Positions 15,243-34,400 of a DNA stretch of 64,000 nucleotides are shown here, one piece after another. The notes beneath the pieces are model-generated. The model did no database searches. It was not told the origin of the DNA and worked only from the letters and a program-made list of their open reading frames with translations. The stretch is from Comamonadaceae bacterium (GTDB taxonomy: Bacteria > Pseudomonadota > Gammaproteobacteria > Burkholderiales > Burkholderiaceae_C). The position numbers and the translations under genes were made by a program. The stretch is from positions 1 through 64,000 of the forward strand of contig JAAFIW010000008.1 of the NCBI GenBank assembly GCA_013297875.1, read 5' to 3'. Each line of letters opens with the position of its first letter. The stretch's first letter is position 1.

Positions 15243-18200
15243 ATGAGCCCTCAAACCTTCATCGACAAGTGGGGCCCCAAGGGCCCAGCGTTTGCCTTGA
15301 ATGAAGAGCAGGGCGCGCAAAGCCATTTTTTAGACCTGTGCGAGCTGCTGGATGTGCCCAAGCCTGGCAGCCAGGACGGCTACGTATTTGAAAAGAAGGC
15401 CCTCGTGCTCGGTGAGGCCAGGGGCTATGCCGACGTATTCAAGCGCGGCGCATTCGCTTGGGAAAACAAGGCCCCCGGCAAAAACCTCGATGCCGCGCTC
15501 AAGCAATTGCTCAACTACAGCAGCGCCCTGAGCAACCCGCCCTTGCTGGTGGTCTGCGACCGCCTGACGATTCGCGTGCAAAGCCAGTTCACCGGCCACC
15601 CGAGTGAAAAGTTCACCGTGCTGCTGGACGAGCTGCAGCAGCCCGACAAGCTGGCCCTGCTGCGCCGCATCTGGCTGGATCCAGAGAGCTTTCGCCCCAA
15701 AGTTACCAGCCGTGACATCACGGAAGAGGCGGCTAAGAGCTTTGCGACGCTGGCTGGGCAGCTGCGCAAATCAGGGCACGAGCCGCAGAAGGTGTCGCAC
15801 TTTTTGACGCAGTGTCTGTTTTGCTTTTTTGCAGAGGATGTGGGCCTCTTGCCGAATCGCCTGTTTGAAAAGATGATCAATGCCAAGCTGGATCTGCCGA
15901 GCAAGAGTGGGGCACTTCCCAGCGAAAAACTGGCTAATGGATTGAACTCTTTGTTCCACGCCATGAATACAGGCGACCTGTTTGGTGTTCATGATCTGGT
16001 GTGGTTTAACGGCGGCTTGTTCAAGAACATTGATGTTCCCAAGCTGGACATCATGAATGTCACCGAGCTGCGCAACGCTGCCGCCCTGAACTGGTCGGCC
16101 ATCGACGTGTCCATCTTCGGCACCCTGTTCGAGCGCGGCCTGGACCCCGGCAAACGCAGCCAGCTGGGCGCGCACTACACCGACCCGGCCACCATCATGC
16201 GCATCATCGAGCCCGTGTTACAGCGCCCGTTGCTACAAATATGGGAGCTGGTTGAGCAGGAAATACAAGGGCTGATGGCCAAAAGCAAGAAGAAAGACGA
16301 CGCGCAGTACAAAAAAGCCCGCGCCCGTTTCACCGACTGGCTGCTGCAACTGCAAAACTTTCGCGTGCTCGACCCGGCCTGCGGCAGCGGCAACTTTTTG
16401 TTCCTGGGCTTGAAGGCGCTGAAAGACATCGAGCACCAAAGCCACCTACAAGCCGCCGCCCTGGGCCTGGACCGCGAGGCTGATCTGGTCACCGGCCCGC
16501 ACAACATGCTGGGCATCGAGCTGAACGAATACGCCGCCGAACTGGCTCGCTTGACGGTGTGGATTGGCGAGCTTCAGTGGCGGCTGGCCAAAGGCTACGA
16601 ATTCAAAACCAATCCCGTGCTGGAGCCGCTGGACAACATTGAGTGTCGTGATGCGCTGCTTGAGTTTGTCTCTTCCCCGGATCGGCCCCCTCCCCTCCCG
16701 GGGGAGGGCGGGGGTGGGGGCTCCCCGCTCCCAAAAGCCATAGAAGCCACCTGGCCCCAAGCCAGCATCGTGATCGGGAATCCGCCGTTTGTGGGCGACA
16801 AGAAGATGCGTGCCGAGCTGGGCGACGACTACACGAACGCTCTGCGAAAGGTCTACAAAGGGCGAGTGCCCGGCGGTGCTGACCTGGTTTGCTATTGGTT
16901 TGAAAGAGCTCGCACCGCTATGGAAACCAATGAACTTGGCGCTGCCGGACTTGTTGCAACGAACTCCATTCGAGGAGGAAAAAACCGTACAGTTTTAGAC
17001 GCAATTTGCAAAATCACACGAATTTTCGAAGCATGGAGTGATGAGGGATGGGTGAACAAGGGGGCCGCAGTTAATGTTTCATTGATCGCATTCGGCAGTT
17101 CAGTCCAGCTCGCGCGACTGGACGGAAATGTGGTTAGTCGAATTCACACCGACCTGCGAGCAAATGATCAAGTTGGGAATGAAAGTGACATTGTGTCGGC
17201 GAGTGGTCTGCGCGAAAACAAAGGAGTTGCGCTTCAAGGACCTACGAAAGGAGGCAGTTTTGATATTGAAGGTGCTCTCGCTGCTCAATGGATTGTTAGT
17301 AGTGGGAATCCGAACAGAAAATCTAACGCGGATGTTCTTAAACCTTGGTTTAACGGTGACAGCATCGCTGGTCGGTGGTCTGGAAAGTGGATCATCGACT
17401 TTGCGGAGATGTCGGAAACCGAGGCTTGTTTGTATGAAAAGCCTTTTGAGCATGTCAATAGGTTGGTTAAGCCCGCCCGACGCAAACAGGGTATGCCATC
17501 CCGCAAAATTTTTTGGTGGCGATACAACGCGTCCGCTCCTAAAGTTCGCAGCGCCATTCTGAAAATGCACCGCTACCTCGTCACGCCCGAGGTTTCAAAA
17601 CACAGGATCTTCGCGTGGCTACCGCTTGGTACTGCACCGGATAAAAATCTGGTTGTTTTTTTAAAACTTGATGACTGTTTTTTCGGTGTTTTGCAGTCCC
17701 GGTTTCACGAGGTGTGGGCACTGCGTAAGGGAACTTCATTAGAGGATCGACCGCGATATACATCTTCCACAACGTTCAGAACCTTTCCCTTCCCTCCCGG
17801 CCTGACCCCCGCCGACACCGCCAGCCAGCAAACTGAATCGGTGCAGGAGAACCCTCTCCCGCACGTGCAGCCGAAGGCTTCGCCTTCAGGTGCCGGAGAG
17901 GGAGCAAGTCCCGCCCTCATCCCCGCAGGCCTGCCAGAACCCGTTCGCACCTCCGCCATCGCCATCGCCCAAGCCGCCCACCGCCTGAACGCGCTGCGCG
18001 AAAACTGGCTGAACCCACCCGAGTGGACGCAGCGCATTCCTGAGGTGATTCCTCTGGGCATGACCAGCAGCCCGTACCCAGACCGCATCGTGGCCACAGC
18101 AGGCCACGAAAAAGACCTGGCCGAGCGCACGCTGACCAAGCTGTACAACCAGCGCCCCGCCTGGCTGCACGCGGCGCACCAGGCGCTGGACCTGGCCGTG

Positions 18201-19769: not shown

Positions 19770-20753
19770 TCAGCTGCGCACAAACGCCAACACGGCCTGC
19801 ACGCAGCCCTCGTCGGCCAGGATGGCCAGATGCCCCAGTTGCTTGGCTTCGTGCAGGCCAATGGTCGGGCTTTGCGCGGCCATGCTGGCGCTGTGTTTGA
19901 AGGCGGTGATTTTGTCGGCCCTGTCGTGCACGATCAGCACCTGGGTGTGCGGGATTTGCTGGTACAGCGGGGCCAGCGCATCGGGCATGAAGTCGCTGAA
20001 TCTTTTGCCCGATGAACGCTCCAGCCCCTCTTGCAAAGCAGCGCGAACCTCATCGGACAGAAGGTGGGCTTTGGCCCACAGACCTGACAGCTTGAGGGTG
20101 TCGTAAAACGGGGCCAACAGCACCAGACGCTTGACCGCAATCTGGCGGTTGGCCACCGCCCAACTGGCAGCGGCCCCGCCCAGCGAATGGCCCACCAGCA
20201 CGTCAATTGGGCCTGACGCTTTTTGCACATGGGCGGCAACAGTGAGCAGGGTGGCCAGTGCCACCGGCAAGCCACTGATCTCGCCCTGGCTGCCGCCGTG
20301 AGCCAGGTGGTCAAACGCATGGACTTCATAGCCCGCTTGCAGCGCCTGTTCAATCAGCAGCGCAAAATTCAGCGCATAGCCCTCCCAGCCATGGCACAGC
20401 AGCATTCGCCCGCGCGACACGCCGGTGGCCGACCAGCGGTAGCACTGCACGTCCAGCCCGTCGTGCTGCACGGTGTAGCGCTGGGCGCGGTCCAGCAGGC
20501 TGCGCAGTGGCGGCTCCGCAGTACGCCACTGGGTGGTTTTCCAGCCAAAGTAGCGCTGCGTGTCTTCCCGCAAACGGGCCAGATCGGGCTTGCGGCGGGC
20601 CGACGCAGGTGGCGTGCAAAAGGCTTGCACCACCACAGCCTGCAACGGCGCAGGCCCTTGTTTGGCCGCCTGGTTGATGTGGCGGCGCACCTTCAGCACA
20701 GCGGCCGCAAAACGCAGCATGTCGCCGCCGGTGGGGTTGAGCATTTCCAGCAT
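19770..20753 (-). CDS. Alpha/beta hydrolase
   Basis: 327 residues. Alpha/beta-hydrolase features in order: oxyanion region LLCHGWEG (about residue 119), nucleophile elbow GHSLGG (about 190), acid HDRADKIT (about 275) and catalytic His in KQLGHLAIL (about 304). Substrate cannot be named. The gene is divergent from a MarR regulator across 79 bp containing a strong inverted repeat, so MarR control is likely. Other Met codons near the N-terminus leave the exact start open. Confidence 0.82.
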   Translation of the reverse strand: MLEMLNPTGGDMLRFAAAVLKVRRHINQAAKQGPAPLQAVVVQAFCTPPASARRKPDLARLREDTQRYFGWKTTQWRTAEPPLRSLLDRAQRYTVQHDGLDVQCYRWSATGVSRGRMLLCHGWEGYALNFALLIEQALQAGYEVHAFDHLAHGGSQGEISGLPVALATLLTVAAHVQKASGPIDVLVGHSLGGAAASWAVANRQIAVKRLVLLAPFYDTLKLSGLWAKAHLLSDEVRAALQEGLERSSGKRFSDFMPDALAPLYQQIPHTQVLIVHDRADKITAFKHSASMAAQSPTIGLHEAKQLGHLAILADEGCVQAVLAFVRS

Positions 20754-20777
20754 GGTGTGATCCGTGAAGTAGGTTTA

Positions 20778-20823
20778 AAATTGGTTCGTAATCACACCAT
20801 TATAGTTCATTAACGAACGAATT
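20778..20823. promoter_or_regulatory. Candidate MarR operator
   Basis: AATTGGTTCGTAAT (about 20779-20792) and ATTAACGAACGAATT (20809-20823) are inverted copies with a 16-base spacer, between the divergent hydrolase and marR genes and within 10 bases of the marR start. Binding by the neighbouring MarR is inferred. Confidence 0.55.
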
Positions 20824-20832
20824 ATCAACACC

Positions 20833-21306
20833 ATGCCTGTATCCAAAAAAACACACCCCTATGACGCTGCGCAGGGCCTGGGTGCGTGGTTGGCCGTGGT
20901 GCGCACCTACCAAAAGTGTGTCGAGGTGTTGACGGCCCGCATCAAGCCGCTGGGGCTGAAGCTGGCGCAGCACGACGTGTTGATGAGCCTGTTGCACACG
21001 ACTGAAAAAACCCAGCAGCAGCTGGCCGAAACCAGCTTTGTGACCAAGAGCCACATGAGCGCGGTGCTGGCTGACATGGAGCAACTGGGTTGGATCAGCC
21101 GCACCGGTAGCGCCAGCGACAAGCGCAGCAAATCCATCACCCTCACGCCCACTGGCCTGGCGCTGGCGCACCAGGCTTTTGCTGTGCAGGCTGAGGTGGT
21201 GCGCACCATGATGGCCCCGCTGACCCCTCAACAGATTGCCGATTTGCTGCACGTGTCACGCGAAGGCTATAGGGCGCTGAGCAGCAATGCCTTGGTCGAT
21301 GATTGA
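20833..21306 (+). CDS. MarR-family transcriptional regulator
   Basis: 157 residues with a winged helix: the recognition region TQQQLAETSFVTKSHMSAVLADMEQLGWI is followed by the wing RTGSASDKRSKSITLTPTG. MarR proteins are dimeric repressors released by small ligands. It is divergent from the hydrolase and just upstream of the formylglycine-enzyme-like gene (29 bp), so it may control both sides through the inverted repeat in front of it. The ligand is unknown. Confidence 0.87.
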   Translation: MPVSKKTHPYDAAQGLGAWLAVVRTYQKCVEVLTARIKPLGLKLAQHDVLMSLLHTTEKTQQQLAETSFVTKSHMSAVLADMEQLGWISRTGSASDKRSKSITLTPTGLALAHQAFAVQAEVVRTMMAPLTPQQIADLLHVSREGYRALSSNALVDD

Positions 21307-21335
21307 TCTGCCGCACAACCGCGAAAGGCACACCC

Positions 21336-22085
21336 ATGAGTTGGTTAAAAAACGCTGCCCTTGTTGTTCTGTGCACGTCGCTGACCGCTGCCCACAGCCA
21401 GACTGCCCCGCCGGTGCAGCCCATGCAGCCGATGGGCCGTTTCGAGATAGACCGCACCGAGGTCAGCATCGGCCAGTTTCAGCGCTTTGTAGACGCCACC
21501 CAAACCGTGACCGCCGCCGAGCGTGCAGGCGGTGGCAGCACCTATGAAGCCGGCTGGCAGCAGCGCCGCGGCTGGACCTGGCGCGCGCCATTTGGCCAGC
21601 CGGGCCATGCCAACGAGCCGGCGGTCCACATCAACTACCGGGAGGCGCAAGCCTTTTGCCAGTGGGCCGGCAAGCGCTTGCCCACCGACGCCGAATGGGG
21701 TGAGGCCGCCTACACCGAGCGCCGGGCCAAGCCACCGGCCGGCTTCGTGACGGGCCGCACCTATGCCTACCCCACCGGTGACAGCCCGCAAGGTGCCAAT
21801 TGCCTGGGCGATTGCGGCAGCGTGGCCACGGTGAGCAACGCCGTCACCAGCCGTGGCAAGGGCCATGCGATGGTGGGCAGCACGCGCATGGGCGTCAATG
21901 GTTTGTATGACATGGGCGGCAATGCCTGGGAATGGGTTGACAGCGGCCCGGGGGCCGACAAGCGCACGCGGGGTGGAAGTTGGTGGTACGGTGCCAGCGC
22001 CATGCAAGACAACCACCACCAAAGCAAGCCCGCCGACACCTCGGTGGTGTACATCGGTTTTCGCTGCGCCAAGGACACACCCTAA
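21336..22085 (+). CDS. Secreted formylglycine-generating-enzyme (SUMF1) family protein
   Basis: 249 residues from the ATG at 21336 (AAAGG upstream). The N-terminal MSWLKNAALVVLCTSLTAAHSQ is a signal peptide. SUMF1/FGE-sulfatase landmarks: FEIDRTEVSIGQFQRF, AVHINYREAQAFCQWAGKRLPTDAEWGEAAY, GLYDMGGNAWEW, RGGSWW and the terminal GFRCAKD. The family oxidises cysteine to formylglycine in sulfatases or serves other surface roles. No sulfatase gene is in the window, so the substrate is open. Probably co-transcribed with marR. Confidence 0.83.
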   Translation: MSWLKNAALVVLCTSLTAAHSQTAPPVQPMQPMGRFEIDRTEVSIGQFQRFVDATQTVTAAERAGGGSTYEAGWQQRRGWTWRAPFGQPGHANEPAVHINYREAQAFCQWAGKRLPTDAEWGEAAYTERRAKPPAGFVTGRTYAYPTGDSPQGANCLGDCGSVATVSNAVTSRGKGHAMVGSTRMGVNGLYDMGGNAWEWVDSGPGADKRTRGGSWWYGASAMQDNHHQSKPADTSVVYIGFRCAKDTP

Positions 22086-22091
22086 CGATCC

Positions 22092-23003
22092 TCAAGCCGG
22101 TGCCGCCGCCCCCACCTTGGCTGCATCGCGGGCCAGTGCTTCACGGGTGGCATTTTTGCGATACCAGACGGTGACGGCTGAGCTGGTCAGCACAATAAAC
22201 AGGCTGTAGAGCACGGGGATCAGCAGCACCTGCTGCTGCAATTCCCCCTTGAAGGTGAGCGTGACGATCAACACAGCCAGAGGGCCGTTTTGAATACCCG
22301 TCTCCAGGCTGATGGTGCGAGAACGGTTGTTGTCTTGCTTGAGCAGCCGCGCCAACCAGTAACCCAACAGCATGCCAAACAAACCGAGCCCGACGGCTGC
22401 AAAGAACACCGGCCACGGCGTGGACAGCAGCAGCTGGTAGTTGCGCGGCACCCATGACACGATCAGGAACAGGATCACGAAAATGCCCAGCATCGAACCA
22501 ATCAGTTCGATGGTGGCCCCCACATTCGGGTTGACCTTGCGCAGAACCATGCCCAGGATGGTGGGCACCAGCAGCACCACCAGCACCTGCGCCACGTTGG
22601 CCGCCGGAATGGCGAACTCACCGGTCACGCCTGCCAGCTTGCTGTAAAAGGCGATCAGCAGTGGCACGGCAGCAATGGCCACCAAGGTGGACACGCTGGT
22701 CATCATGATGGACAGGGCCAGCGCACCCTTGCTGAAATACGTAAAGATGTTGGAGGTGGTGCCGCCCGGCATGCAGCCCATCAGAATCAGGCCCACTGCC
22801 AGCGCGGGCGGCAAACCCAGCAGCACCGCCAGCAGATAGCCCAAAAACGGCATCACGCCATACTGGCACACGATGCCAACAATCACCCCCTTGGGTTTCT
22901 TGAAGGCAATCAGAAAGTCGCGAAACGTCAGCGACGCACCCATGCCCAACATGATGACCATCATCATCACGCCCAGCAGCTTGGTTTCAAGTTCGGTCAA
23001 CAT
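22092..23003 (-). CDS. Bile acid:sodium symporter (BASS) family transporter
   Basis: 303 residues, about nine to ten transmembrane helices. BASS signatures: GCMPGGTTSNIFTYFSKG (around residue 76) and SLETGIQNGPLA (around 231). The family co-transports organic anions with Na+; the substrate is not predictable. It starts 12 bp after fadD on the same strand with AAAGGA upstream, suggesting an operon for uptake and activation of an organic acid. Confidence 0.87.
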   Translation of the reverse strand: MLTELETKLLGVMMMVIMLGMGASLTFRDFLIAFKKPKGVIVGIVCQYGVMPFLGYLLAVLLGLPPALAVGLILMGCMPGGTTSNIFTYFSKGALALSIMMTSVSTLVAIAAVPLLIAFYSKLAGVTGEFAIPAANVAQVLVVLLVPTILGMVLRKVNPNVGATIELIGSMLGIFVILFLIVSWVPRNYQLLLSTPWPVFFAAVGLGLFGMLLGYWLARLLKQDNNRSRTISLETGIQNGPLAVLIVTLTFKGELQQQVLLIPVLYSLFIVLTSSAVTVWYRKNATREALARDAAKVGAAAPA

Positions 23004-23015
23004 GGGGGTAGTCCT

Positions 23016-24767
23016 TTATTTCTTGTTGAATTCGGCTTTGACTTCGACCTTCAAGTCCTTGCGAAGAATCTTGCCCACCGGTGACTTGGGTAGCTCGTCG
23101 CGAAACACGATGGACTTGGGAATCTTGTAGTCGGTCAGCAGGGTCTTGCAGTGGGCCAGCACCGCCTCTTTCGTCAGTTCACCTGCAAATTCGGGGTTCT
23201 TGACCACATAGGCGCGCACCGCCTCACCGGTCTTGGCATCGGGCACACCCACCACTGCCGCCTCCAGCACCGCGTCCATTTTGGCCAGCGCGTCTTCAAT
23301 TTCGTTGGGATACACGTTGAACCCGGAGACCAGCACCAGGTCTTTTTTGCGGTCCACGATCTTGAAGTAACCCTGCGTGTCCATCACGGCCACATCGCCG
23401 GTGTACAGCCAGCCATCCTTGAGCACGGCTGCTGTTTCATCGGGTCGTTGCCAGTAGCCCCGCATGGTTTGCGGGCCGCGCACGATCAGTTCACCCGGCT
23501 CTCCGGCCGCCACCGGTTCACCGGCGTCATTCACCAGGCGTACCTCGGTGCCGGGCACGGGAATGCCAATGCTGTCGGGCTTGGCCACGCCACTCAAGGG
23601 GTTGAAGGTCACCACCGGCGAGCATTCGGTCAGGCCAAAGCCTTCGGCAATGCGCGTGCCCGTGATCTGCTGCCAGCGCTGCGCCACGGCGTTGTGCAGG
23701 GCGGTTCCACCGGCGATGGCGGCTTTCAGATGCTTGGGCGGGAAGGCGGTGAACCATTCTTCGTTCATCAGGCCATTGAACAGGGTGTTCACGCCCGTGA
23801 TCCAGGTGATGGGGTAGTTTTCAATCGCGCGCTGCAGGTTTTGCACCGGGCGCGGGCTGGGGATCAAAACGTTGTGCCCGCCGATGTCCACAAAGCACAA
23901 CAGGTTGGCTGTGAACGCGAAGATGTGATACAGCGGCAGCGCGGTCAGCACGCATTCGTCTGCGCCCATGTGTGACTTGCCCATGGCCAGCACCTGATCC
24001 ACATTGGCCAGCATGTTGGCATGGGTGAGCATGGCACCCTTGCTCACGCCGGTGGTGCCACCGGTGTATTGCAGGGCCACGATGTCTTGTGCCGCAACGG
24101 CTTTCCACCAGCCAGCAACCTGCCCTGGTTTGTTGCCCGCCATTCCGGCTTGCAGCGCCTTGTTCAATCGCTCGATGGACTGCGGCAGCGTTGGAATCGG
24201 TGGCAGCACCTTGCTCCAGACCTTTTGCACACCGCGCACGATCAGGTTGGGCACGGCCGGGAACAGCTCGGACACGCCCGCCAGCACCACCCGCTCAATC
24301 GCGGTTTTGGGCAGCACCTCAGCCAGCTTGTCGGCAAACATGTCCACGATCACCAGCACCCGGGCACCCGAGTCTTTGAACTGATGCGCCATTTCGCTGG
24401 GGGTGTACAAGGGGTTGGTGTTGACCAGCACACAACCGGCCTTGAACACACCAAACGCCACCACCGGATAAGCCAACCCGTTGGGCAACTGCACCGCGAC
24501 CCGGTCACCGGCGTTCAGACCACAGACCTGGCGCAGATAGACGGCAAACGCATCTGACAACTGCCCGAGCTGCTGGTAGCTCAAGCTGCCGTTCATGCCA
24601 TTGGGCACCACGGCGGTAAAGGCCTTTTTGCTGCCATAGCGGGTGCAGGCCTGGTCGACCAGATGGGCCAGGTTTTGGTACCGGGGCGGCGGGAGTTGAG
24701 GTTCAATGGCCTTGCCGTAGGCAGATTGCCAGGGTTGGGCATCAAAGGTGGGCGCGTCAGCCATCAT
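23016..24767 (-). CDS. fadD: Long-chain fatty acid-CoA ligase
   Basis: 583 residues, full-length acyl-adenylate-forming enzyme. The P-loop-like motif LQYTGGTTGVSKGAM, the GFGLTECSPVV acyl-binding motif, YTGDVAVMDTQGYFKIVDRKKD, and the C-terminal catalytic Lys in KSPVGKILRKDLK are visible. It activates fatty acids with ATP and CoA. It heads a two-gene minus-strand operon with the BASS transporter. ATG codons at 24767 and 24764 are both possible. Confidence 0.88.
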   Translation of the reverse strand: MMADAPTFDAQPWQSAYGKAIEPQLPPPRYQNLAHLVDQACTRYGSKKAFTAVVPNGMNGSLSYQQLGQLSDAFAVYLRQVCGLNAGDRVAVQLPNGLAYPVVAFGVFKAGCVLVNTNPLYTPSEMAHQFKDSGARVLVIVDMFADKLAEVLPKTAIERVVLAGVSELFPAVPNLIVRGVQKVWSKVLPPIPTLPQSIERLNKALQAGMAGNKPGQVAGWWKAVAAQDIVALQYTGGTTGVSKGAMLTHANMLANVDQVLAMGKSHMGADECVLTALPLYHIFAFTANLLCFVDIGGHNVLIPSPRPVQNLQRAIENYPITWITGVNTLFNGLMNEEWFTAFPPKHLKAAIAGGTALHNAVAQRWQQITGTRIAEGFGLTECSPVVTFNPLSGVAKPDSIGIPVPGTEVRLVNDAGEPVAAGEPGELIVRGPQTMRGYWQRPDETAAVLKDGWLYTGDVAVMDTQGYFKIVDRKKDLVLVSGFNVYPNEIEDALAKMDAVLEAAVVGVPDAKTGEAVRAYVVKNPEFAGELTKEAVLAHCKTLLTDYKIPKSIVFRDELPKSPVGKILRKDLKVEVKAEFNKK

Positions 24768-25081
24768 GAAATTGTTTCCAGTGGTATTTCGGACGGCAAT
24801 TGTGTCCAGGCCACCTGCAATTGGCTAGATTTCAGGCCATCACCCTGACAAACTGTAAGACCTCTCCTCAGGGTTATCACCTGGTAGTTGGTGGAAAACA
24901 CCCTGCTGCAGCAAATGTTCCCGTGGCTTGGGTACGGACCGGACACAACCGCGCGGGCGGAGGTAGACCGCGGGCGGTACGAAGGTATCCGGTTTCGCGG
25001 GTCATGTTGTGGCCCGCGCGCACAGGCCCTGCACCGGTGCTACGATTTTTTTCCTATCTTTATTGATAAAAGGCCATTGCC
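24768..25081. other. Divergent intergenic region, 314 bp
   Basis: Between fadD and a plus-strand secreted-protein gene; no supported gene. It must hold both promoters. Visible structure: two direct GC-rich repeats, ACCGCGCGGGCGG and ACCGCGGGCGG (about 24949-24979), and a downstream GGCCCGCGCGC (about 25010-25022) that can pair with the first. Confidence 0.5.
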
Positions 25082-25813
25082 ATGAAGCTGCGTCGTCAAA
25101 TTGTTTTGTCGCCTCTGCTGGCCATGGCCAGCAACGCACTGGCCGCCACCGAAAGCGCCACTACCCAGCCGGCGGTGGTGCAGTTGAAGAACGACATCGT
25201 CAGGCTGGCGCAGTCGTATGCCGGACAAGGGGATCCTGATTTTTCAAAGCAGGCGTCGTTCCAGCCGTTGATTGACAGCTTGCTGGCGCTCCGGCCGCAG
25301 GCGCCCGTCAGCCAGCGCATTGCCACCATTGCAGGCCCCTGGCAGCAGATTTGGGGGCCTTACAACTACCGTGGCTCCGAGCGTACGGTCGATCCCGAAC
25401 TTGGTGTTAACGAGATTTACCAAGTGGTGCTCCCCAACGGCATCTACTACAACGTCACGCCGCTGTATGACCGGGGTGATCGCTCGCGCGAACGCATCGC
25501 GCTGTTGCGCGGCGAGTACAGGTTTGATGACACGCAGTCCAATGTGTTGTTGGTGCGTTTTGTTCGCTACCCCGGCCTGAGCAAAAGGCCGGCAGATGGA
25601 ACCCAACTGTTTGAGCTGCCGGGTTTACTGGAAAGAGGCGAGATCACCAGCGATATCAACGTCGTGCCCACCTGGATCGTGCGAATCTTATTTGGCGGCG
25701 GCGCTTTGAAAGAGGTCTACACCGATGCAGGTTTGCGCATTTTGTACGGAGCAAGTAGCAACAAATTCGACAAGCCTGCGCTCTACATCATGAACCGGGT
25801 GACCCAGGCTTGA
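25082..25813 (+). CDS. Secreted PAP/fibrillin-like protein
   Basis: 243 residues. A signal peptide ends ALA-A near residue 22. The rest resembles the PAP/fibrillin (plastid-lipid-associated) fold: a helix VQLKNDIVRLAQSY with a PLIDSLLAL segment, GPWQQIWGPY, a beta-barrel and the closing LRILYG...ALYIMNRV. In plants and cyanobacteria these proteins bind hydrophobic molecules; here export to the periplasm is inferred. The assignment rests on motif resemblance only. Confidence 0.55.
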   Translation: MKLRRQIVLSPLLAMASNALAATESATTQPAVVQLKNDIVRLAQSYAGQGDPDFSKQASFQPLIDSLLALRPQAPVSQRIATIAGPWQQIWGPYNYRGSERTVDPELGVNEIYQVVLPNGIYYNVTPLYDRGDRSRERIALLRGEYRFDDTQSNVLLVRFVRYPGLSKRPADGTQLFELPGLLERGEITSDINVVPTWIVRILFGGGALKEVYTDAGLRILYGASSNKFDKPALYIMNRVTQA

Positions 25814-25819
25814 GGCTTC

Positions 25820-25885
25820 TCAATACGTATTGCGCCCCGCCATCACCCCGCCATCCACATCCCACACCGCGCGGGTCACCCAGGT
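25820..25885 (-). pseudogene. 3' stump of a short-chain dehydrogenase gene
   Basis: Read on the minus strand this gives TWVTRAVWDVDGGVMAGRNTY and a stop. The W-D-V-D-G-G-V-M-A-G-R-N ending is the typical C-terminus of classical SDR oxidoreductases. The frame meets a TAA directly upstream, so only about 22 codons remain. A TetR-type operator (25908-25925) lies 23 bp upstream, suggesting the body of the gene was deleted and its promoter region left. Confidence 0.65.
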
Positions 25886-25907
25886 TTATGACGAAATCCT
25901 CTAATTG

Positions 25908-25925
25908 TACCTACTAGTTGGTAGA
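25908..25925. promoter_or_regulatory. TetR-type operator, orphan copy
   Basis: TACCTACTAGTTGGTAGA, near-palindromic around ACTAGT and identical at 17 of 18 bases to the site in front of the cupin gene. It lies upstream of the SDR stump and downstream of tetR. Confidence 0.7.
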
Positions 25926-25984
25926 TAAAGCGCATCAAAAAATGACCTCGAAAGGTCGCCAGATGCCAGCCTAAAAACGCGTTT

Positions 25985-26569
25985 TCAGGCCAGCAAATAC
26001 CCCATCAATCCTTGCGTCACGGTTTGCGGTCCGCTGTCACTGCGCAGGCCGCGCCCCACCATCATGGCGCCTTCCAGCGCGCACAAAAACAGCATCGCGC
26101 GGCGCTGGGCTTCGTCTCGCGCAAGAGGCTTTTTGCCGGTGTGGCCAGTCGAGATCACATGGGCCAGCCAGGCCAGGTTGCGGTTGAAGAAGGCTTGCAC
26201 TTCATCGCCCACGGGCGGCGGCAAGTCTTCGGCCTCGGTGCCCAGAATGCCGCAGACGCACAAGCGCCGGTCTTGCGCATAGGTTTGCTCAAACAAGGCG
26301 GCATAGGCCTGCAGCCGCGCAGGCCCACCGGTGTGGGTTTGTTCAATGCCGTCCAGTGCATCAAAAAACCGCTGCGCAAAACGTTGCGCCATGGTGGCCA
26401 CCAGCTGCGCCTTGGTGGCAAAGTGGTGGTGAATGCTGGGCTTTTTAATGCCCACCTGCCGGGCAATGTCGTCGTATGAAAAGCCGTTGTAGCCAAAGCG
26501 CTGCACCAGGCCTTCGGCGGCGTCCAGCACCTTTTCGGCGGCGGGGGTGATTTCGCTGAAGTGCTTCAT
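25985..26569 (-). CDS. TetR-family transcriptional repressor
   Basis: 194 residues from the ATG at 26569, which overlaps the cupin stop (ATGA); a longer in-frame start at 26614 is less likely. TetR helix-turn-helix: VLDAAEGLVQRFGYNGFSYDDIARQVGIKKPSIHHHFATKAQLV split over about residues 10-55. The C-terminal ligand domain is not diagnostic. It is co-transcribed with the two-cupin gene, and the two 18-bp sites in this neighbourhood are its likely operators. Confidence 0.87.
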   Translation of the reverse strand: MKHFSEITPAAEKVLDAAEGLVQRFGYNGFSYDDIARQVGIKKPSIHHHFATKAQLVATMAQRFAQRFFDALDGIEQTHTGGPARLQAYAALFEQTYAQDRRLCVCGILGTEAEDLPPPVGDEVQAFFNRNLAWLAHVISTGHTGKKPLARDEAQRRAMLFLCALEGAMMVGRGLRSDSGPQTVTQGLMGYLLA

Positions 26570-27243
26570 GCGGACGTGTCGGGCAAGTGCCCCGTTTTGA
26601 CAAAAATCGTGCAACCTTCGCGGCTGAAGGGTTGGTGCTGGCTCAAGTGCGGGCTGCGAATCCAGCTACCTTCCGGGTAGCGGCCATGCTCGTCTTCAAA
26701 CACGCCCTGCACGACGTAAATTTCTTCGCCGCCGTGGTGGCGGTGCGGATTGAAAAATGTCTGAGGTGCCCAGCGCACCAGGGCTGTGTGCTCCGTGCCA
26801 AAGGCTGACAAAGGCAAGACCTGCAAACCTGGCACCAAGCCTGGATGCCAGGTCGCCAAGCGGGTATCAATCACGGTGCGGCTGAGGTCATCGGCCTGCA
26901 GATGCCGCAGCTTCACAAACAGCGTGCAACCGGCTTCGGTGAACGGGGAATGCTGAGACTGTGGTGGGTTCTTGATGTAGGTGCCAGGGCCGTAGTGGCC
27001 ATGCTCGTCTGAGAGCACGCCCTCCAGCACCAAAATTTCTTCGCCCAGGCCGTGGGTGTGCGCGGGAAAGCGGGCACCAGGCGCGTAGCGCACCACGGAC
27101 GTTGCCCGCGCCACCTCGTCGCCAATGCGCTCGATCTGGCGGCGTGACACCCCCGGTGTAGGCGATGCTTGCCAGGGCAGGGATGTGGTGTTGACTACCG
27201 TGCGGTCGGAGAGATCAGCATTCAGCAGGGTGGGCGAATTCAT
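26566..27243 (-). CDS. Double-cupin protein (ChrR cupin-like)
   Basis: 225 residues with two cupin barrels. The first (about 50-105) has FPAHTHGLGEEILVLEG and the second (about 160-212) NPHRHHGGEEIYVVQG, each with the His-His/Glu/His metal set and a following Y-P-E/GPGTYIKNP turn. The layout resembles ChrR-type cupins, which bind metal and sense or process small molecules. It is translated just before tetR with a 4-base overlap. The TetR-type operator is 4 bases upstream of its ATG and would block expression when occupied. Confidence 0.83.
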   Translation of the reverse strand: MNSPTLLNADLSDRTVVNTTSLPWQASPTPGVSRRQIERIGDEVARATSVVRYAPGARFPAHTHGLGEEILVLEGVLSDEHGHYGPGTYIKNPPQSQHSPFTEAGCTLFVKLRHLQADDLSRTVIDTRLATWHPGLVPGLQVLPLSAFGTEHTALVRWAPQTFFNPHRHHGGEEIYVVQGVFEDEHGRYPEGSWIRSPHLSQHQPFSREGCTIFVKTGHLPDTSA

Positions 27244-27247
27244 AAAT

Positions 27248-27265
27248 TACCGACTAGTTGGTAGA
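27248..27265. promoter_or_regulatory. TetR-type operator of the cupin-tetR operon
   Basis: TACCGACTAGTTGGTAGA, nearly palindromic, directly in front of the cupin start. Matches the orphan site at 25908-25925 with one difference. Confidence 0.75.
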
Positions 27266-27322
27266 TTGAGTGAACGAATTCTGGCACAGTTTTGCCAACC
27301 CCGCCTTTGCCATACTTGCCCC

Positions 27323-28072
27323 ATGTCCAAACCCATGCAGCTTCAAGACATTCTCTACACCCAAGGCTTTGGCACCCGCCGCGTGTGCGCGGGCCTCATT
27401 CAACAGGGTTTTGTGGCGGTAGCCCATGAAACGATTGCTCAAGCAGCTACTGAATTTGTAGCAGACGGTTTGCAGTTCACGGTGCAAGGCGTGGACTGGC
27501 CGTACCACGAGAAGGCTTATGTGATGCTGCACAAGCCGATGGGCACCGAGTGCTCGCACAAGGCGTCCACCTGGCCCAGCATCTACACCCTGCTGCCCCC
27601 GCCGCTGCGCCAGCGGCCCCAAAAAGGCCCGGTGCAAGGCGTGCAGGCAGTGGGTCGGCTGGACCAGGACACCACCGGGCTGCTGCTGCTGACGGACGAC
27701 GGCAATTTCATCCACCGCATGAGCTCGCCGCGCCACCACGTGCCCAAGGTGTATGACGTGACTACCAAGCACCCGCTGGACGACGCCCAGGTGCAAAAGC
27801 TGCTGGCCGGTGTGGTGCTGGACGACGACCCCAAACCCGTGCGCGCCGCCGCCTGCGAGGCCGTGGCCGGGCACCATCTGCGGCTGACCTTGACCGATGG
27901 CAAATACCACCAGGTCAAGCGCATGCTGGCCGCGGTGGGCAACCGGGTGGAAGGGCTGCACCGCTCGCAAATTGGCGCACTGGCGCTGCCGACCGATCTG
28001 CTGCCGGGGCAATGGCGCTGGTTGAGCGCTGCCGATCTGGCGGCCTTGCAGGACAAAACCCTGCAGCCATAA
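27323..28072 (+). CDS. rsuA: 16S rRNA pseudouridine synthase RsuA type
   Basis: 249 residues from the ATG at 27323; the frame runs further upstream but without similarity. An S4 domain (LQDILYTQGFGTRRVCAGLI) is followed by the catalytic domain: VMLHKPMGTECS, the catalytic Asp in VGRLDQDTTGLLLLTDDG, SSPRHHVPKVYDV and DGKYHQVKRMLAAVGNRV. Closest to RsuA, which makes pseudouridine 516 in 16S rRNA. Residues 38-47 (IAQAATEFVA) are encoded by a copy of the dispersed element, in the S4 linker. Confidence 0.85.
   Translation: MSKPMQLQDILYTQGFGTRRVCAGLIQQGFVAVAHETIAQAATEFVADGLQFTVQGVDWPYHEKAYVMLHKPMGTECSHKASTWPSIYTLLPPPLRQRPQKGPVQGVQAVGRLDQDTTGLLLLTDDGNFIHRMSSPRHHVPKVYDVTTKHPLDDAQVQKLLAGVVLDDDPKPVRAAACEAVAGHHLRLTLTDGKYHQVKRMLAAVGNRVEGLHRSQIGALALPTDLLPGQWRWLSAADLAALQDKTLQP
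27433..27462 (-). repeat. TAGCTGCTTGAGCA element, partial copy inside rsuA
   Basis: Minus-strand reading GCTACAAATTCAGTAGCTGC then TTGAGCAATC. Only the stem and core are present. In frame with rsuA. Confidence 0.65.
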
Positions 28073-28081
28073 CCCGCCGAT

Positions 28082-29356
28082 CTACAACCCTTTCACCCAT
28101 TCCCCCAGCGCGGCAAACGCGGGCAGGCTGATCGGGTCATTCGCGGCGCTGGAGGCAATGGGGTGGGAGGCGAAGCGTGCGATCACCAGTTCGGCCTGGG
28201 GCGCGACGTACAGCCGCTGGCCGTGGATGCCGCGGGCTTCAAAAGCACCATGGGCGTTGTGTGTGACCCACCACATGTTGCGATACGAGTAACCGGGCAG
28301 CAGGGTGTAGCCGGCCTTGGCGAACCTGGCAGGGTCGGCACCGCGCCGGATGTCGGCCACCACGGCAGCTGGAATGATCTGATCGGCACCGCGCGCGCCG
28401 CCGCAGCGCATGAGTTCGCCAAAGCGGGCCAGGTCGCGCAGGGTGGCGCTCAGGCCACCGCCGCCGAAGGCCACGCCGATGGAATCGACACTGATCTGAG
28501 CGTCTTCCTCGCAGGCCAGGCGCTGCCAGATGCGCTCGCTGAGCATGTCGGCCAGGGCCTGGCCGGTCACGCGCTTCATGACCCAGCACAAGAGGTCGGT
28601 GTTGACGGTTTTGTAGGCAAAGGCCTGGCCGTGTTCGCCTTCTTTTTGCAGGGTTTGCAGAAACTCATAGAAGGTGCCGGGGCCGTTGTCACCCGCCTTG
28701 CGCGCCAGCAGGCCGCCAGCGCGGGCGTGGCTCCAGATCTGGGCCTGGGGGTCCGCGTACAGCTCGGAAAAGGCCACGCCAATCTGCATGTCCAGCACCT
28801 GGCGCAAGCTGGCGTCGGCATAGGCGGTGCGAGCCATTTCGGGCAGGTAAAAGGGCACGGTGCGGGTTTCATCCAGCACGTTTTCATGCAACAGCGTGGC
28901 CGCCAGCGTGGCGGCGTACGACTTGGTGATGGAAAAGCAGGCGTGGGAGCCATGGGGCTGCAAGGCACCGGCATAGCGCTCATAGACGCGTTGGCCGCGG
29001 TGCAGCACCACCATGCCGTCGGTGTAGGTGTCTGCCAGCGACGTGCTCCAGGTGCGGGGCTGGCCATTCATGTCGGTAAAGGGCAGGGCGTCAATGGCGG
29101 CTTGGGTGGCTGTGTTCACGCGACCCAGGTCACTGGGCGGCGCGCTGCCGCGCCACACGTTGGCGGTAGGCACCAGCTCCCGCATGTGCGACAGCGCCCA
29201 GCGGTTTTGCGGAAAGTTCAAAAACTGGTTGTCGGAAAAGCGGATGGTTTTGTCCTGTGGCGGTGGCGAGCCCTGCATCCAGCCCAGCGCCACGGGGTCT
29301 GAATCGTGGGCGTTCAGGTAGGTGTTGCCGTCGAAGGTGTTCAGATGGGGTGTCAT
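28082..29356 (-). CDS. Class C beta-lactamase-like serine hydrolase
   Basis: 424 residues from the ATG at 29356; a longer TTG start at 29389 lacks support. The SXXK nucleophile motif is SITK (CFSITKSYAATLAATLL) and a Tyr-X-X-Asn-like FAYKTVNTDLL follows; late HGQRLYVAPQAELV is the third-motif region. No signal peptide, so it is likely a cytoplasmic esterase or peptidase rather than a true lactamase. It converges on rsuA with 9 bp between stops. Confidence 0.83.
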   Translation of the reverse strand: MTPHLNTFDGNTYLNAHDSDPVALGWMQGSPPPQDKTIRFSDNQFLNFPQNRWALSHMRELVPTANVWRGSAPPSDLGRVNTATQAAIDALPFTDMNGQPRTWSTSLADTYTDGMVVLHRGQRVYERYAGALQPHGSHACFSITKSYAATLAATLLHENVLDETRTVPFYLPEMARTAYADASLRQVLDMQIGVAFSELYADPQAQIWSHARAGGLLARKAGDNGPGTFYEFLQTLQKEGEHGQAFAYKTVNTDLLCWVMKRVTGQALADMLSERIWQRLACEEDAQISVDSIGVAFGGGGLSATLRDLARFGELMRCGGARGADQIIPAAVVADIRRGADPARFAKAGYTLLPGYSYRNMWWVTHNAHGAFEARGIHGQRLYVAPQAELVIARFASHPIASSAANDPISLPAFAALGEWVKGL

Positions 29357-29391
29357 GGTTGGCCAGGTGTGTTGAGGGACGAATTTCAAGT

Positions 29392-29446
29392 AAAAATGGC
29401 TACCAGCCCTTATAAAATATGCTCAAGCAGCTATTTTATTGATAGC
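29392..29446 (-). repeat. TAGCTGCTTGAGCA element copy, supplying a stop codon
   Basis: Minus strand: GCTATCAATAAAATAGCTGC then TTGAGCATATTTTATAAGGG and CTGGTAGCCATTTT. The first 24 bases are the last codons (AINKIAA) and TGA stop of the radical SAM gene. Confidence 0.9.
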
Positions 29447-31354
29447 AATTGGGTGTGTGCTCCCTGCCAGAGCACGTTCCACAAAGTCAGGTGCCACCTT
29501 GGTTTTGGGCACGCGCACATCAAACCAGCTGCGCACGTTTTGCGTGAGGCCAATGCCGTGCATGTAGTTGTACAGCGCCTTGTTCAAGCCCTTGCCCAGC
29601 GCGTCGTGGTCAACGCCGGTCGGGTCGATGAAGGCGATGTCGTTTTTCGCAAAGTTGCCCGGCGGCAGCGGCACCAGGGTCACGCCATAGTCTTGCGGTG
29701 CTTTGCCCACCGGCGAGTGCACGGTGCAAGCAAACCGGTGAAAAAAGCCGCTTTGAATGCAGCCCGCAGCAAACAACTGGCGCACGTATTCCAGCGCGTC
29801 TACCGTGTCTTGCACTGTCTGCGTGGGAAAGCCGTACATCAGGTAGGCGTGCACCAAAATGCCCGCGTCTGAAAAGCCTTTGGTCACGCGGGCCACCTGT
29901 TCGACCGACACGCCTTTTTTCATCAGTTTGAGCAAGCGGTCAGACGCCACTTCCAGCCCGCCGCTGATGGCAATGCAGCCGCTGTCGGCCAGCTCCTGGC
30001 ACAAATCGGGTGTGAACGATTTTTCAAAGCGGATATTGCCCCACCAACTAATGGCCGTGCCACGCGCCTGCAGCTCGGCGGCCAGGGCTTTGAGCGCTTT
30101 GGGTGGGGCGGCTTCGTCGACAAAGTGAAAGCCGGTCTGGCCGGTCTCCAGCACGATGGCCTCGATGCGGTTGACCAGCTCTTGCGCGGTCGTGCCTTCG
30201 TAGCGGCTGATGTAGTCCAGGCTCACATCGCAAAAGCTGCATTTCTTCCAGTAGCAGCCATGGGCCACTGTGAGCTTGTTCCAGCGGCCATCGCTCCACA
30301 GGCGGTGCATGGGGTTGAGCATGTCCAGCAGGCTCAGGTATTTGTCCAGCGGCAGGCCGTCCCAGGTGGGCGTGCCCACATCGGAAAACGGCACGTCGGG
30401 CTCGGCCAGGTTGATGTATTTCACCTGGCCCTGGTCTCGCACAAACGTGCGCACCAGGCGCTGCGCGCCGCGCTGGCCTTGCACATGTTCCAGCAGCGCC
30501 AGCAAGGGGCGCTCGCCTGCGTCCAGCGTGACGAAATCAAAGTAGTCAAACACCCGGGGCTCGGCCAGCTCGCGCAGCTCGGTGTTCACATAGCCGCCGC
30601 CCAGCACGGTGGTGATGTGCGGGTGGTGCAATTTGATGGCCTGTGCGATGCGAAACGCCGCGTACACCGAGCCAGGAAAGGGCACTGAGAGCAGCACCAC
30701 GGTGGGCTGGTGCTGCGCCACGCTTTGCAGCGCGAGCGCCACCAGGGTTTGGTCCACCAACGTGAACGGCAGGGCCAGCGCGGTGGCCAGCGGCTCAAAC
30801 GTGGGCTGGCTGCCGGCCAGCGACTCGGCGTAGCGCACGAATTCAAAGCGCGGGTCAATCGCGTCTTTCAGCACATCGGCCAGGTCGTTCAAATACAAGG
30901 TGGCCAGGTGGCGAGCCTTGTCTTGCGCGCCCAGCGAGCCAAAAGCCCAGGCCAGCGGGTCGCCGCCGTCGTCATCCACATACACATCGAGCGACTCAAA
31001 GCGTGGGCCTTCGGGCAGAAAGCTGCGCGAGTTGATGCGGTGTGCCAGCGTGGAGTCTTTGCCTTGCAGGTAAGCGATGGTAGGGTTGATCGTGGCCTGG
31101 TAGCGGTCAAACTGCTCCGTGAACAAGGCCACGCGTGCGGTGGTTTGCGTGTGCTTTTCAATGTCGGCGCGTATCTGCCGCAGCCCCTCGGCACAAAACA
31201 GCTTGAGCACCAACGCCAGCGCCACATCTGCCTGCATCGCCTGCACACCGCGCGAACGCAGAAAACCTGTCAAGTAGGCGGTGGACGGGTAGGGCGTGTT
31301 CAGCTGTGTCATCGGCGGGATGAGCGAGAGAACGCGCAGGGTCGAAGAGGGCAT
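29423..31354 (-). CDS. B12-binding-domain radical SAM protein
   Basis: 643 residues. The N-terminal third looks like a cobalamin-binding Rossmann domain (VVLLSVPFPGSVYAAFRIAQ, TTVLGGGYVNTELRELA, around residues 220-275). The radical SAM cluster site is near residue 367: HGCYWKKCSFCDVSLDY, a CX4CX2C rather than the usual CX3CX2C. Glu-rich SAM-domain strands follow (GCIAISGGLEVASDRLL, LVHAYLMYGFPTQT). Reaction unknown; relatives with GCYWxxCxFCD modify peptides or other substrates. The last residues and stop come from the dispersed repeat, so the natural C-terminus may have been lost or replaced. Confidence 0.8.
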   Translation of the reverse strand: MPSSTLRVLSLIPPMTQLNTPYPSTAYLTGFLRSRGVQAMQADVALALVLKLFCAEGLRQIRADIEKHTQTTARVALFTEQFDRYQATINPTIAYLQGKDSTLAHRINSRSFLPEGPRFESLDVYVDDDGGDPLAWAFGSLGAQDKARHLATLYLNDLADVLKDAIDPRFEFVRYAESLAGSQPTFEPLATALALPFTLVDQTLVALALQSVAQHQPTVVLLSVPFPGSVYAAFRIAQAIKLHHPHITTVLGGGYVNTELRELAEPRVFDYFDFVTLDAGERPLLALLEHVQGQRGAQRLVRTFVRDQGQVKYINLAEPDVPFSDVGTPTWDGLPLDKYLSLLDMLNPMHRLWSDGRWNKLTVAHGCYWKKCSFCDVSLDYISRYEGTTAQELVNRIEAIVLETGQTGFHFVDEAAPPKALKALAAELQARGTAISWWGNIRFEKSFTPDLCQELADSGCIAISGGLEVASDRLLKLMKKGVSVEQVARVTKGFSDAGILVHAYLMYGFPTQTVQDTVDALEYVRQLFAAGCIQSGFFHRFACTVHSPVGKAPQDYGVTLVPLPPGNFAKNDIAFIDPTGVDHDALGKGLNKALYNYMHGIGLTQNVRSWFDVRVPKTKVAPDFVERALAGSTHPIAINKIAA

Positions 31355-31476
31355 TCGGCTGATTATCAGGCGGGGTGGCTGCTGTTACAAACTGCTGCTA
31401 ATGACAACTATTGAACTAGTTAAAGTTGCCTGGCGTTACGTGCAATCGACCCGGAACCTCCAACAGCGAGCCCACC

Positions 31477-34400
31477 ATGACAGCCATTCACTTTGAAAAA
31501 TCCAATCAACCTGCCTGGGTACTACGCACGCTGTCGGCGCTGGTGAGCCTGGTCTGTGCGGCCCCCGTGTGGGCACAGGACGCCGACATTTTGATGGTGG
31601 TGGGGCCCGGTGAGGTGCGAACCTCGGAGCCCAGTGCCTGGACGCCGGCCCGCGCGCCGCAAAAGCTGGTTTCAGGCAGCTTTGTGCGCACGGGGCCCGA
31701 CGCGCAAATGGCGCTGCTGCTGCGCGACCAGACGCAATTGCGCCTGAATCAAAACACCACGTTGCAAATCAGGTCGCTGCAAGCCGGCAGCGATTCCACG
31801 GTGCTCTCGCTCACGCAGGGCCGCTTGTGGGCACAAGTCAAACAACTGGCCACCGGCGTGGTTCGGGTGGCGTCCGCTGCGGTGCTGCCCAACCGGCTGC
31901 GCATCATCACGCCCACGGCGACCGTGGGCATTCGTGGAACCGACTGGGAGCTGGTGGTGGGTGACCAGGGCATCACCACGCTGACGGTGGTCAGCGGCGA
32001 AGTGGAGATGGCCAACGAATTTGGGCGTGTGTCAGTAGGTGCCAATGAGCAAGCCGTGGCTGAAGCCGGCAAGGCACCGGTGAAAAGCCTGCTGTCCAGC
32101 GCGCGCGACCGGGTGCAGTGGGTCACTGCTTACCGGCCCGCCCCTGCGCGCTGGCTACCCAGCCCGCCCGCGGCGCTGCAAGCCGCGGTGCGTGACATTG
32201 AAGCGGGCGCTTACGCCAAGGCGCTTGCTGCGCTGGAGTCCAACCGCTCCCAAGTGGCCGCCAGCCTGTTGCTGGCCGATGTCTACATCTACCTGGGTCG
32301 CACAGCTGACGCGGTCAATGTGCTGGCCCCGTTTTCGCAGGCAGGCCGTGGTGACCCGGCGGCCACCGCGCTACAAGGCCGCGCACTGCTGGTGGCCGGG
32401 CGATTGGACGAAGCCGCCAGTCTGCTGCAAGAAGGCCTGAAAACGCACCCCGCCGACCGGGAACTGGTGCTGGCCGTGGCTGACGTGGCGCGCGTGCAGG
32501 GCGACGCAGACCAGGCGCTGCGCTGGTTTTCACAAGTCACGCTGGCGCACCCCAAGAGCCACGAAGCCTGGTTTGGCGTGGGCCGAATTCAGGTGGACAA
32601 GGAAGACCTGTCCAAAGCCAAAGCCGCGCTGGACGAAGCCATTCGTCTGAGCCCCAATGAAGCGGGCTACCAGGGTGAGCGCGCCACCTTGTTGGCTTTG
32701 TCGGGCGATCTGAAGGCCGCACGCACCGCATTTGACGAGGCACTGAAGCAGCACCCCGACGACTACCTGGCCTGGACGGGCTTGGGCATCTTGCAGCTGA
32801 AAACCGGTGAGCCGCAGCAAGCGCTGGAATCGTTCCTCAAAGCCACCGTGCTGGAGCCCCGCTTTGCCCGCGCGCAGCTGTATGTGGGCGTGACCTACTA
32901 CCAGCTCGGTGATGCGCAGCGTGCGATTGAGGCGGTCAACCGCGCGGCGCAGCTGGATGAAAAAGACCCGCTGCCCTACTTGATGCTGGGCCTGATTCAC
33001 GGCGACGCGCAAGAGCTGGCGCTGGCCACCGAAGCGGCCCAACAGGCCCAGGTGCGCATGCCCTTTTTGAAATCAGCCAACCAGTTGCTCAACGACCAGA
33101 AAGGCAGCGCCAACGTGGGCACGGCACTGGCCAATCGCGGCATGGAGGAATGGGCGCAGTCGTATGCCACGGCTTCCTACAACCCGTATTGGGCGGGCAG
33201 TGCGTTTTTTCTGGCCGATCGCTACACCGACGGCTTCAACAAAAATTCGCAGCTGTACCGGGGCTTTTTGCTCGACCCGTTGTCGTTTGGCGCATCGAAC
33301 CGGTTGAGCTCGCTGGTGGCGGTGCCGGGGCATTACGGGAGTGTGGGCTTGGAGCGGCAGCGGGCCGATATTGACTACACGATTGGGCAGGTCACGGCCA
33401 ATGGCCTGTTCGCTACCAACGTGCCGATTGCCTATTCACTGACCGGTCAAAAGGCGTCGCTCAGCGCCAGAAATGGCCAATTGCGCGACAGCAATCTGGA
33501 CAACCTGACCGTGGGTTTGGGCATGAAGCCATCGTCTGATCTGGGTATTTTTTACTTTGGTTCGCGTATTGGCCTGGCAGCCAAATCGCCATTTGTGGCG
33601 TTAACGGGTGGGAGTCAGCCCGATAGCAGCATCAAGCTGAGCAACCCGCGCCATGACATCGGTTTGACCTATCGCTTCGCGCCGGACAACCAGATCATGC
33701 TTAAGTACGGTCAAGGCAGCCAGGCAACCACCAAAAAGGGAAAAACAGAAAGCCAGGAAATCACCGACCTGTTCGACGTCTTGGTTGTACTGGTCGACCC
33801 TGACGCGGTTCCGTTCAACCCCATCGGCGAGCTGGACTACCGCGCCCGAAACCGGGTCCGCGACTTTCAGTTCAACCACAGCCTGGCACTCAGCAGCCAA
33901 ACGCAGTTGAGCTGGGGTTTCGAGCAGGTGCAAGACCAGCAAACCATTGTGCTGGCCCAGTCGTTCCAAGGTGCTGCGGGCTCACCCCGTGCGACCCGCT
34001 TTGACCTGAGTGGCACGCGTGATTTGAAATACACCGGTTGGTATGTGTCTGGCCGCTCCAGCCCATCCGACAGCTTTTCCTGGCAGGCTGATCTGGCCCA
34101 TCAGTCGTTTCGTGGAAAGTCGGTGGTCGGGGCACTGATTGATGTGGGAGGTGGCATTGACGCGACCGAACAAGACAGCGTGACACCCGAGTCCATCAGA
34201 AGCCTCAGCCCCCGACTGGGCGTGCGCATTGCCACCGCGCAGGGCCAGCAACTCAAGCTGGTGTATCAGCGCTGGCGCCGCCCGCCCGGGGTAGCCACTT
34301 TGGCGCCCGTCGACACGCTGGGAATTCCTGTTGAAGACCGGCTGGTGACGGCGGGCGGCCTGCTGAGCAGGTTGCGCGCACAGTACGACTGGCAGCGAAA

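Follow-up and report, generated by a model that had tools for sequence, protein, structure and literature searches.

The window, i.e., the whole stretch of 64,000 nucleotides that was analysed (positions 1 to 64,000 of contig JAAFIW010000008.1, from the Comamonadaceae bacterium assembly GCA_013297875.1), carries on its minus strand a cupin-tetR unit, followed by a terminator-like hairpin, a second copy of the operator that precedes the cupin gene, and the last codons of an SDR gene (Table 1). The regulator has the TetR_N DNA-binding domain (PF00440, 45.6 bits vs a cut-off of 24), which places it in the TetR family, and its residues Cys104 and Cys106 were invariant in 40 of 40 aligned TetRs. 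Its best NCBIfam match was AcuR, at 44.1 bits vs a cut-off of 247, so that it does not belong to AcuR, and none of its 21 NCBIfam matches up to E 0.1 was a NemR model, in a library whose content for NemR is unconfirmed. The cupin scored 64.5 bits with the ChrR model TIGR02451 (cut-off 124.5), with model positions 109-190 of 216 as the best stretch, and is not a ChrR anti-sigma factor by this cut-off or by the N-terminal anti-sigma domain. Residues H62, H64, E68 or E69, and H98 of its first domain were kept in 19-20 of 20 cupins, and H167, H169, E173 and H203 of the second in 16-17 of 20, the window's cupin included in both cases; we take these residues to be the likely metal ligands. Convergent with the SDR stump, a plus-strand gene (25082-25813) encodes a 243-aa protein that had no match in Pfam (E ≤ 1) or NCBIfam (E ≤ 0.1); DNA similarity to this gene was detected in two genomes, G006 and G206.

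Table 1. Features of the cupin-tetR locus in the window (matrix scores are from a matrix trained on other loci)
Feature	Coordinates	Strand	Description
SDR stump	25820..25883	-	last 18 SDR codons (W243-N260), then TY and stop; invariant Gly246 changed to Arg
Remnant SDR leader	25884..25907	-	AGAGGA (25902-25897), 7 nt, ATA AAC (25889-25884) at the expected start codon
Operator 2	25908..25925	.	TACCTACTAGTTGGTAGA; near-perfect palindrome; very probably the orphaned operator of the lost SDR gene; matrix score 28.8
Terminator-like hairpin and T run	25944..25957	-	between tetR and operator 2; from consensus scan
TetR-family regulator P0001	25985..26569	-	194 aa, uninterrupted
Two-domain cupin P0002	26566..27243	-	225 aa; two stretches with Cupin_7 matches; resembles ChrR but has no anti-sigma part
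Operator 1	27248..27265	.	TACCGACTAGTTGGTAGA; palindrome TACCGACTAGTTGGTA before cupin-tetR, at the expected ribosome-binding-site position of the cupin; matrix score 28.7

The earlier note had claimed that the two 18-mers differ at a single base and that one of them fronts the cupin-tetR unit, and both claims were borne out when the sequence was checked. Operator 1 adjoins the cupin start (ATG at 27243, minus strand), and this palindrome, present and conserved before cupin-tetR, is a candidate autoregulatory operator. Operator 2 is located between tetR and the stump, as had been proposed, although the distance to the first SDR-homologous base is 24 nt and not 23. The tetranucleotide CTAG is about sevenfold rarer in the whole window than base frequencies predict (31 observed vs 227 expected), so that two exact CTAG palindromes are not a product of chance; in 100 shuffles, a mean of 0.03 matches per window was obtained at ≤3 mismatches. 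Throughout the 4.64-Mb assembly, exact matches to TACCNACTAGTNGGTA were confined to operators 1 and 2, which were also the sole places within ≤2 mismatches, and the same sequence read backwards, as a control, gave 10 matches per strand. Since 44 of 47 sites from relatives have ≤2 mismatches to TACCNACTAGTNGGTA, a genome search of this kind would detect most such sites. A third site near 24880 (CACCTGGTAGTTGGTG), before an acyl-CoA ligase gene, was operator-like by a loose pattern and was rejected, its matrix score being below 6 vs 15.9 for the weakest training site.

The operator motif in relatives that keep the SDR gene

The genome G044 has a TetR 57% identical to that of the window, in the order cupin-tetR-SDR on one strand, with a site before both units and with an intact SDR of 260 aa (C-terminal end WVTGAVWDVDGGVMAGRN). 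Named genomes were scanned with an alignment of three TetRs; the 54 loci obtained were pooled with the window and with the copies on pWW0 and NAH7, and the pool formed 43 groups at 95% TetR identity. Leaving the window aside, 42 non-redundant loci remained, and 27 of them had a full-length SDR within one gene of tetR (a list taken from the locus table by eye), in 21 cases downstream of tetR, as in the window, and in 6 upstream. The other 15 had no full-length SDR in this position; three of these 15 stop soon after tetR (L074, L101 and L106) and were left out of the SDR-loss count. The order cupin-tetR-SDR was observed in 7 of the 27 loci (L060, L061, L062, L078, L079, L085 and L093), the three genes occurred together in any order in 10, and a cupin of the window's type was not found nearby in 17. 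The search for tetR-cupin-SDR with the same operator, which the earlier note had recommended, was thus successful in G044 and in the loci that hold all three genes, and the finding that it had named as fatal to its proposal, a lack of any SDR close to this tetR in related genomes, is clearly not what the relatives show. The SDR type that was lost is a classical one, with N117, S145, Y160, K164, G14, G15, G18 and G20 invariant in 27 of 27 full-length relatives; the SDR matched no PDB entry at E 1e-38, a threshold so strict that this result is uninformative. More distant TetRs, at 31-38% identity (ten regions, L035-L044), come without a window-type SDR: the regions offered no more than 29-31% SDR matches (L039 and L044) and, in L043, a cupin at 42%. 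As a separate observation, the window-type SDR also occurs without this type of tetR in the fetched stretch of three genomes (G153, G278 and G291). In two of them (G291, locus L120, and G153, locus L123) it is divergent from a gene that is LysR-like by sequence reading, and its control seems to have been rewired, because no tetR of this type lies in the fetched 12-13 kb.

To score the operator, a weight matrix was built from 23 sites before cupin or tetR, none of them from the window or from SDR leaders; 18 of the 23 came from loci also among the 27 tested, but from a different promoter. As the sites were chosen with intact ACC and GGT, these six positions look invariant in the matrix. With SDR starts set by hand, 27 of 27 SDR leaders scored ≥15; among 173 control regions, taken from in front of other ORFs in these loci, none reached this score and one reached ≥10. 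In these relatives, one TetR would control two transcription units through a shared 16-bp palindrome: the first would hold cupin and/or tetR, and the second, in most cases immediately 3′ of tetR, would consist of a classical SDR gene under an operator of its own.

The SDR remnant in the window and its age

The stump had been read in the earlier note as the end of an SDR, and this identification held. Its reading (25882-25820, minus strand), WVTRAVWDVDGGVMAGRNTY-stop, with a TAA two codons 5′ of W, is 85% identical to residues 241-260 of the G044 SDR, and at the DNA level the SDR ends of four family genomes matched window positions 25829/25830-25883 at 89% (E 6e-13 to 2e-12), with the homology breaking off abruptly at 25883. 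Weaker DNA matches (78-87%) were observed in G028, G155, G221 and G235. The exact degenerate pattern of the tail was present in at least 6 of 399 family genomes, the window's genome included, which is a lower bound, as the tail of G155 was matched by BLAST and missed by the pattern. The TY before the stop is unremarkable, since the SDRs of relatives end in N, NT, NA, NAV, NVA, NSY, NKY and others; a Pfam search with the 21-aa stump peptide alone gave no match. Between operator 2 and the stump, AGAGGA is a Shine-Dalgarno-like sequence, and the ATA behind it would formerly have been the SDR start codon, judging from its place and from the ATG AAC or ATG AAT that opens the SDR in several relatives. 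The distance from the operator 20-mer to ATA is 16 nt, compared with 6-28 nt to the SDR start in the 27 relatives (starts set by hand); the tail does not share the reading frame of this ATA. In addition, a T run precedes the operator in most of the relatives' SDR leaders that were compared by eye, and the terminator-type consensus had 6 matches in 25700-27420 vs a shuffle mean of 2.6.

These features very probably represent an eroded TetR regulon, in which, as the earlier note had proposed, the body of an SDR gene formerly controlled via operator 2 has been deleted. About 720 bp, i.e., SDR codons ~3 to 242, would have gone, presumably in a single internal deletion, so that the terminator-like hairpin, the operator, the Shine-Dalgarno-like sequence and the last 18 codons would be left, and operator 2 would be a leftover now fronting no complete gene. 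The TetR would bind both putative sites and act as a repressor, and, because tetR and cupin are uninterrupted, cupin-tetR is probably still kept repressed by it as long as no ligand is bound.

The state of the last 20 SDR residues suggests that the loss is recent: 30 relatives share 13 of these residues without variation, and the stump still has 12 of the 13. One change in ~29 non-synonymous sites would put the neutral change accumulated after the loss at ~3% (Poisson range 0.1-19%), a rough figure derived from 60 bases. In the last 20 codons the median number of non-synonymous differences was 3 between the stump and its relatives and 2 among the relatives themselves, two stump codons at or past the break being included in this comparison. 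The SDR has eroded elsewhere too. In L086 (Oxalobacteraceae bacterium AB_14) a middle piece of the SDR and its last codons are all that is kept, the second operator and the 5′ half of the gene being gone, and in its sister L085 (pair support 99/90; both flanks 93-94% identical) the SDR is intact. In L075 the second operator persists at 5610, but an SDR behind it is missing, and in L070 and L071, of the Pseudomonas group, the SDR match reaches only residues 213 and 222, respectively. On the TetR tree, which has 40 rows (L101, L106 and L111, with TetR readings <150 aa, were dropped from the 43 groups), 12 rows are without an SDR, the window's genome (G000) included. The SDR label needed 9 changes on this tree vs a shuffled mean of 11.2, and 41 of 500 shuffles were as low; as this is little below the shuffles, the SDR comes and goes and its presence is weakly clustered. 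The G000 TetR fell in a group of ten, eight rows of which bear an SDR, in a placement that is not strongly supported (92/90). Its terminal branch is 0.75 long vs a median of 0.093, owing either to sparse sampling or to a higher rate of change once the SDR was lost.

The history of these loci bears on a different explanation for operator 2, in which it would be kept by selection, for titration of the TetR, for looping with operator 1, or for a short RNA facing gene 25082-25813. The near-perfect palindrome, which scored as high as operator 1, and the likewise retained operator of L075 are in its favour, but a recent loss accounts for an intact site without any selection, the second operator of L086 disappeared along with the SDR 5′ half, and the promoter scan of 25700-27420 found no sigma-70-type site; we consider selective maintenance unlikely. 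An assembly error, through which the contig would lack an SDR body that the organism does have, is very unlikely. The genome is indeed a draft of 46 contigs, but the ends of the remnant look decayed (Arg in place of a Gly246 that is invariant in 30 relatives, an ATA start and a tail out of frame), and the stump is the only trace of an SDR ortholog found in an assembly that is 99.99% complete: the G044 SDR as query gave 34 matches in the window's genome, the stump being the last one listed, and since the best non-stump match was 38% identical, no ortholog was found elsewhere in the assembly. That the tail was recombined in from elsewhere and an SDR was never at this position in the lineage, for which one might invoke the three genomes with an SDR and no tetR of this type in the fetched stretch, is barely credible, because operator, leader and tail match the order, orientation and spacing of the intact relatives. 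We retain the deletion of an SDR gene from the TetR regulon as the most probable account, and the scar itself is ordinary gene loss. The case is a clean one: an operator left behind pointed to a missing gene, and what it had predicted was confirmed in the relatives.

The wider gene set and known systems

The operator motif was also detected before other genes: a DJ-1/PfpI gene in L095 and L105 (one cluster; L095 was confirmed by Pfam), an amine-oxidase-like gene in L097 and a second SDR type in L111 (both by Pfam on cluster members). In L100 and L104 a high-scoring operator (2711) precedes a DJ-1/PfpI-like frame, an AhpD-like frame, a SLAC1/TehA-like gene and tetR; the DJ-1/PfpI and AhpD-like labels come from reading the translations, the latter from reading alone. 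Furthermore, an OsmC gene lies 3′ of the SDR in nine Pseudomonas loci and in pWW0. From gene content, the TetR ligand would be a reactive electrophile or carbonyl, and the module would detoxify electrophiles. We tentatively regard it as possible, though rather doubtful, that these loci make up an undescribed regulon, in which a Cys-bearing TetR acting at the palindrome TACCNACTAGTNGGTA through thiol-switch sensing would control cupin and SDR genes and, in other lineages, DJ-1/PfpI, AhpD-like, amine-oxidase-like and OsmC genes, as a partly mobile electrophile defence that would also be the Tn4653 cargo. The part of the open-access literature that was covered contained no description of an operator or cupin-TetR pair of this kind, and the portion of PMC6723655 that was seen held nothing on a cupin-TetR-SDR module. 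What is useful here is that an uncharacterised module, mobile in part, now has a well-defined operator and gene set open to testing, which bear on the unexplained Tn4653/Tn6603 cargo of pWW0 and on its related form on NAH7.

On plasmids, 89 records of the collection had a TetR match at E 1e-25 or better; among the best 30 of these 89, 28 were at ~57% identity and 2 at ~40%, the ~57% matches coming from Pseudomonas, two Aeromonas records and one Priestia record. Near-identical cupin-tetR-SDR units, most of them with OsmC, were observed in Pseudomonas and Thalassospira (L062-L070, L110 and L144), several adjoining Tn3-type transposase and resolvase-like genes (labels by reading), and these units appear to be recently spreading cargo. 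SDRs related to the lost one were found in 549 records of the plasmid collection, many from Klebsiella and Escherichia plasmids; the Klebsiella plasmid SDRs among the best 40 of the 549 rows were 63% identical.

The gene set resembles thiol/electrophile stress clusters such as Pantoea OVR-A, which, in the part of the source that was available, is a locus of the NemR/thiol-stress type with a TetR beside redox genes and with SDR-type, OsmC and alkylhydroperoxidase genes together (PMC5817063). On the side of the module, relatives have the operator before DJ-1/PfpI, with an AhpD-like frame behind it; in contrast, the portion of the OVR-A description covered includes no cupin unit of the window's kind (PMC5817063).

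The plasmid NAH7 (NC_007926) shares with the window the order cupin-TetR-SDR and the sites before cupin and SDR (2 mismatches each), and differs from it in that its SDR is annotated as intact and the next annotated gene encodes a short hypothetical protein. A further operator-like site in NAH7 (L145, 16512-16527, 2 mismatches) lies near a different TetR gene (16556-17140). The closest known system is the cargo orf41-43-44-45 of Tn4653/Tn6603 on the TOL plasmid pWW0, as given in the part of the source that was seen (PMC7765201), for which the pWW0 annotation lists a cupin, a TetR, an SDR and OsmC. Like the window, this cargo has a cupin, a TetR (57% identical) and an SDR in the same order, with sites before the cupin (1 mismatch) and before the SDR (2 mismatches). 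The window differs in that its contig is chromosome-sized and its SDR is a stump only; no ORF in 20000-32000 clustered with the OsmC, transposase or resolvase of the Pseudomonas loci, so that the cargo's cupin-TetR-SDR-OsmC order and its adjoining transposase and resolvase are both missing here. The window module is, in this comparison, a chromosomal relative of the cupin-TetR-SDR-OsmC cargo of Tn4653/Tn6603 (TOL plasmid pWW0).
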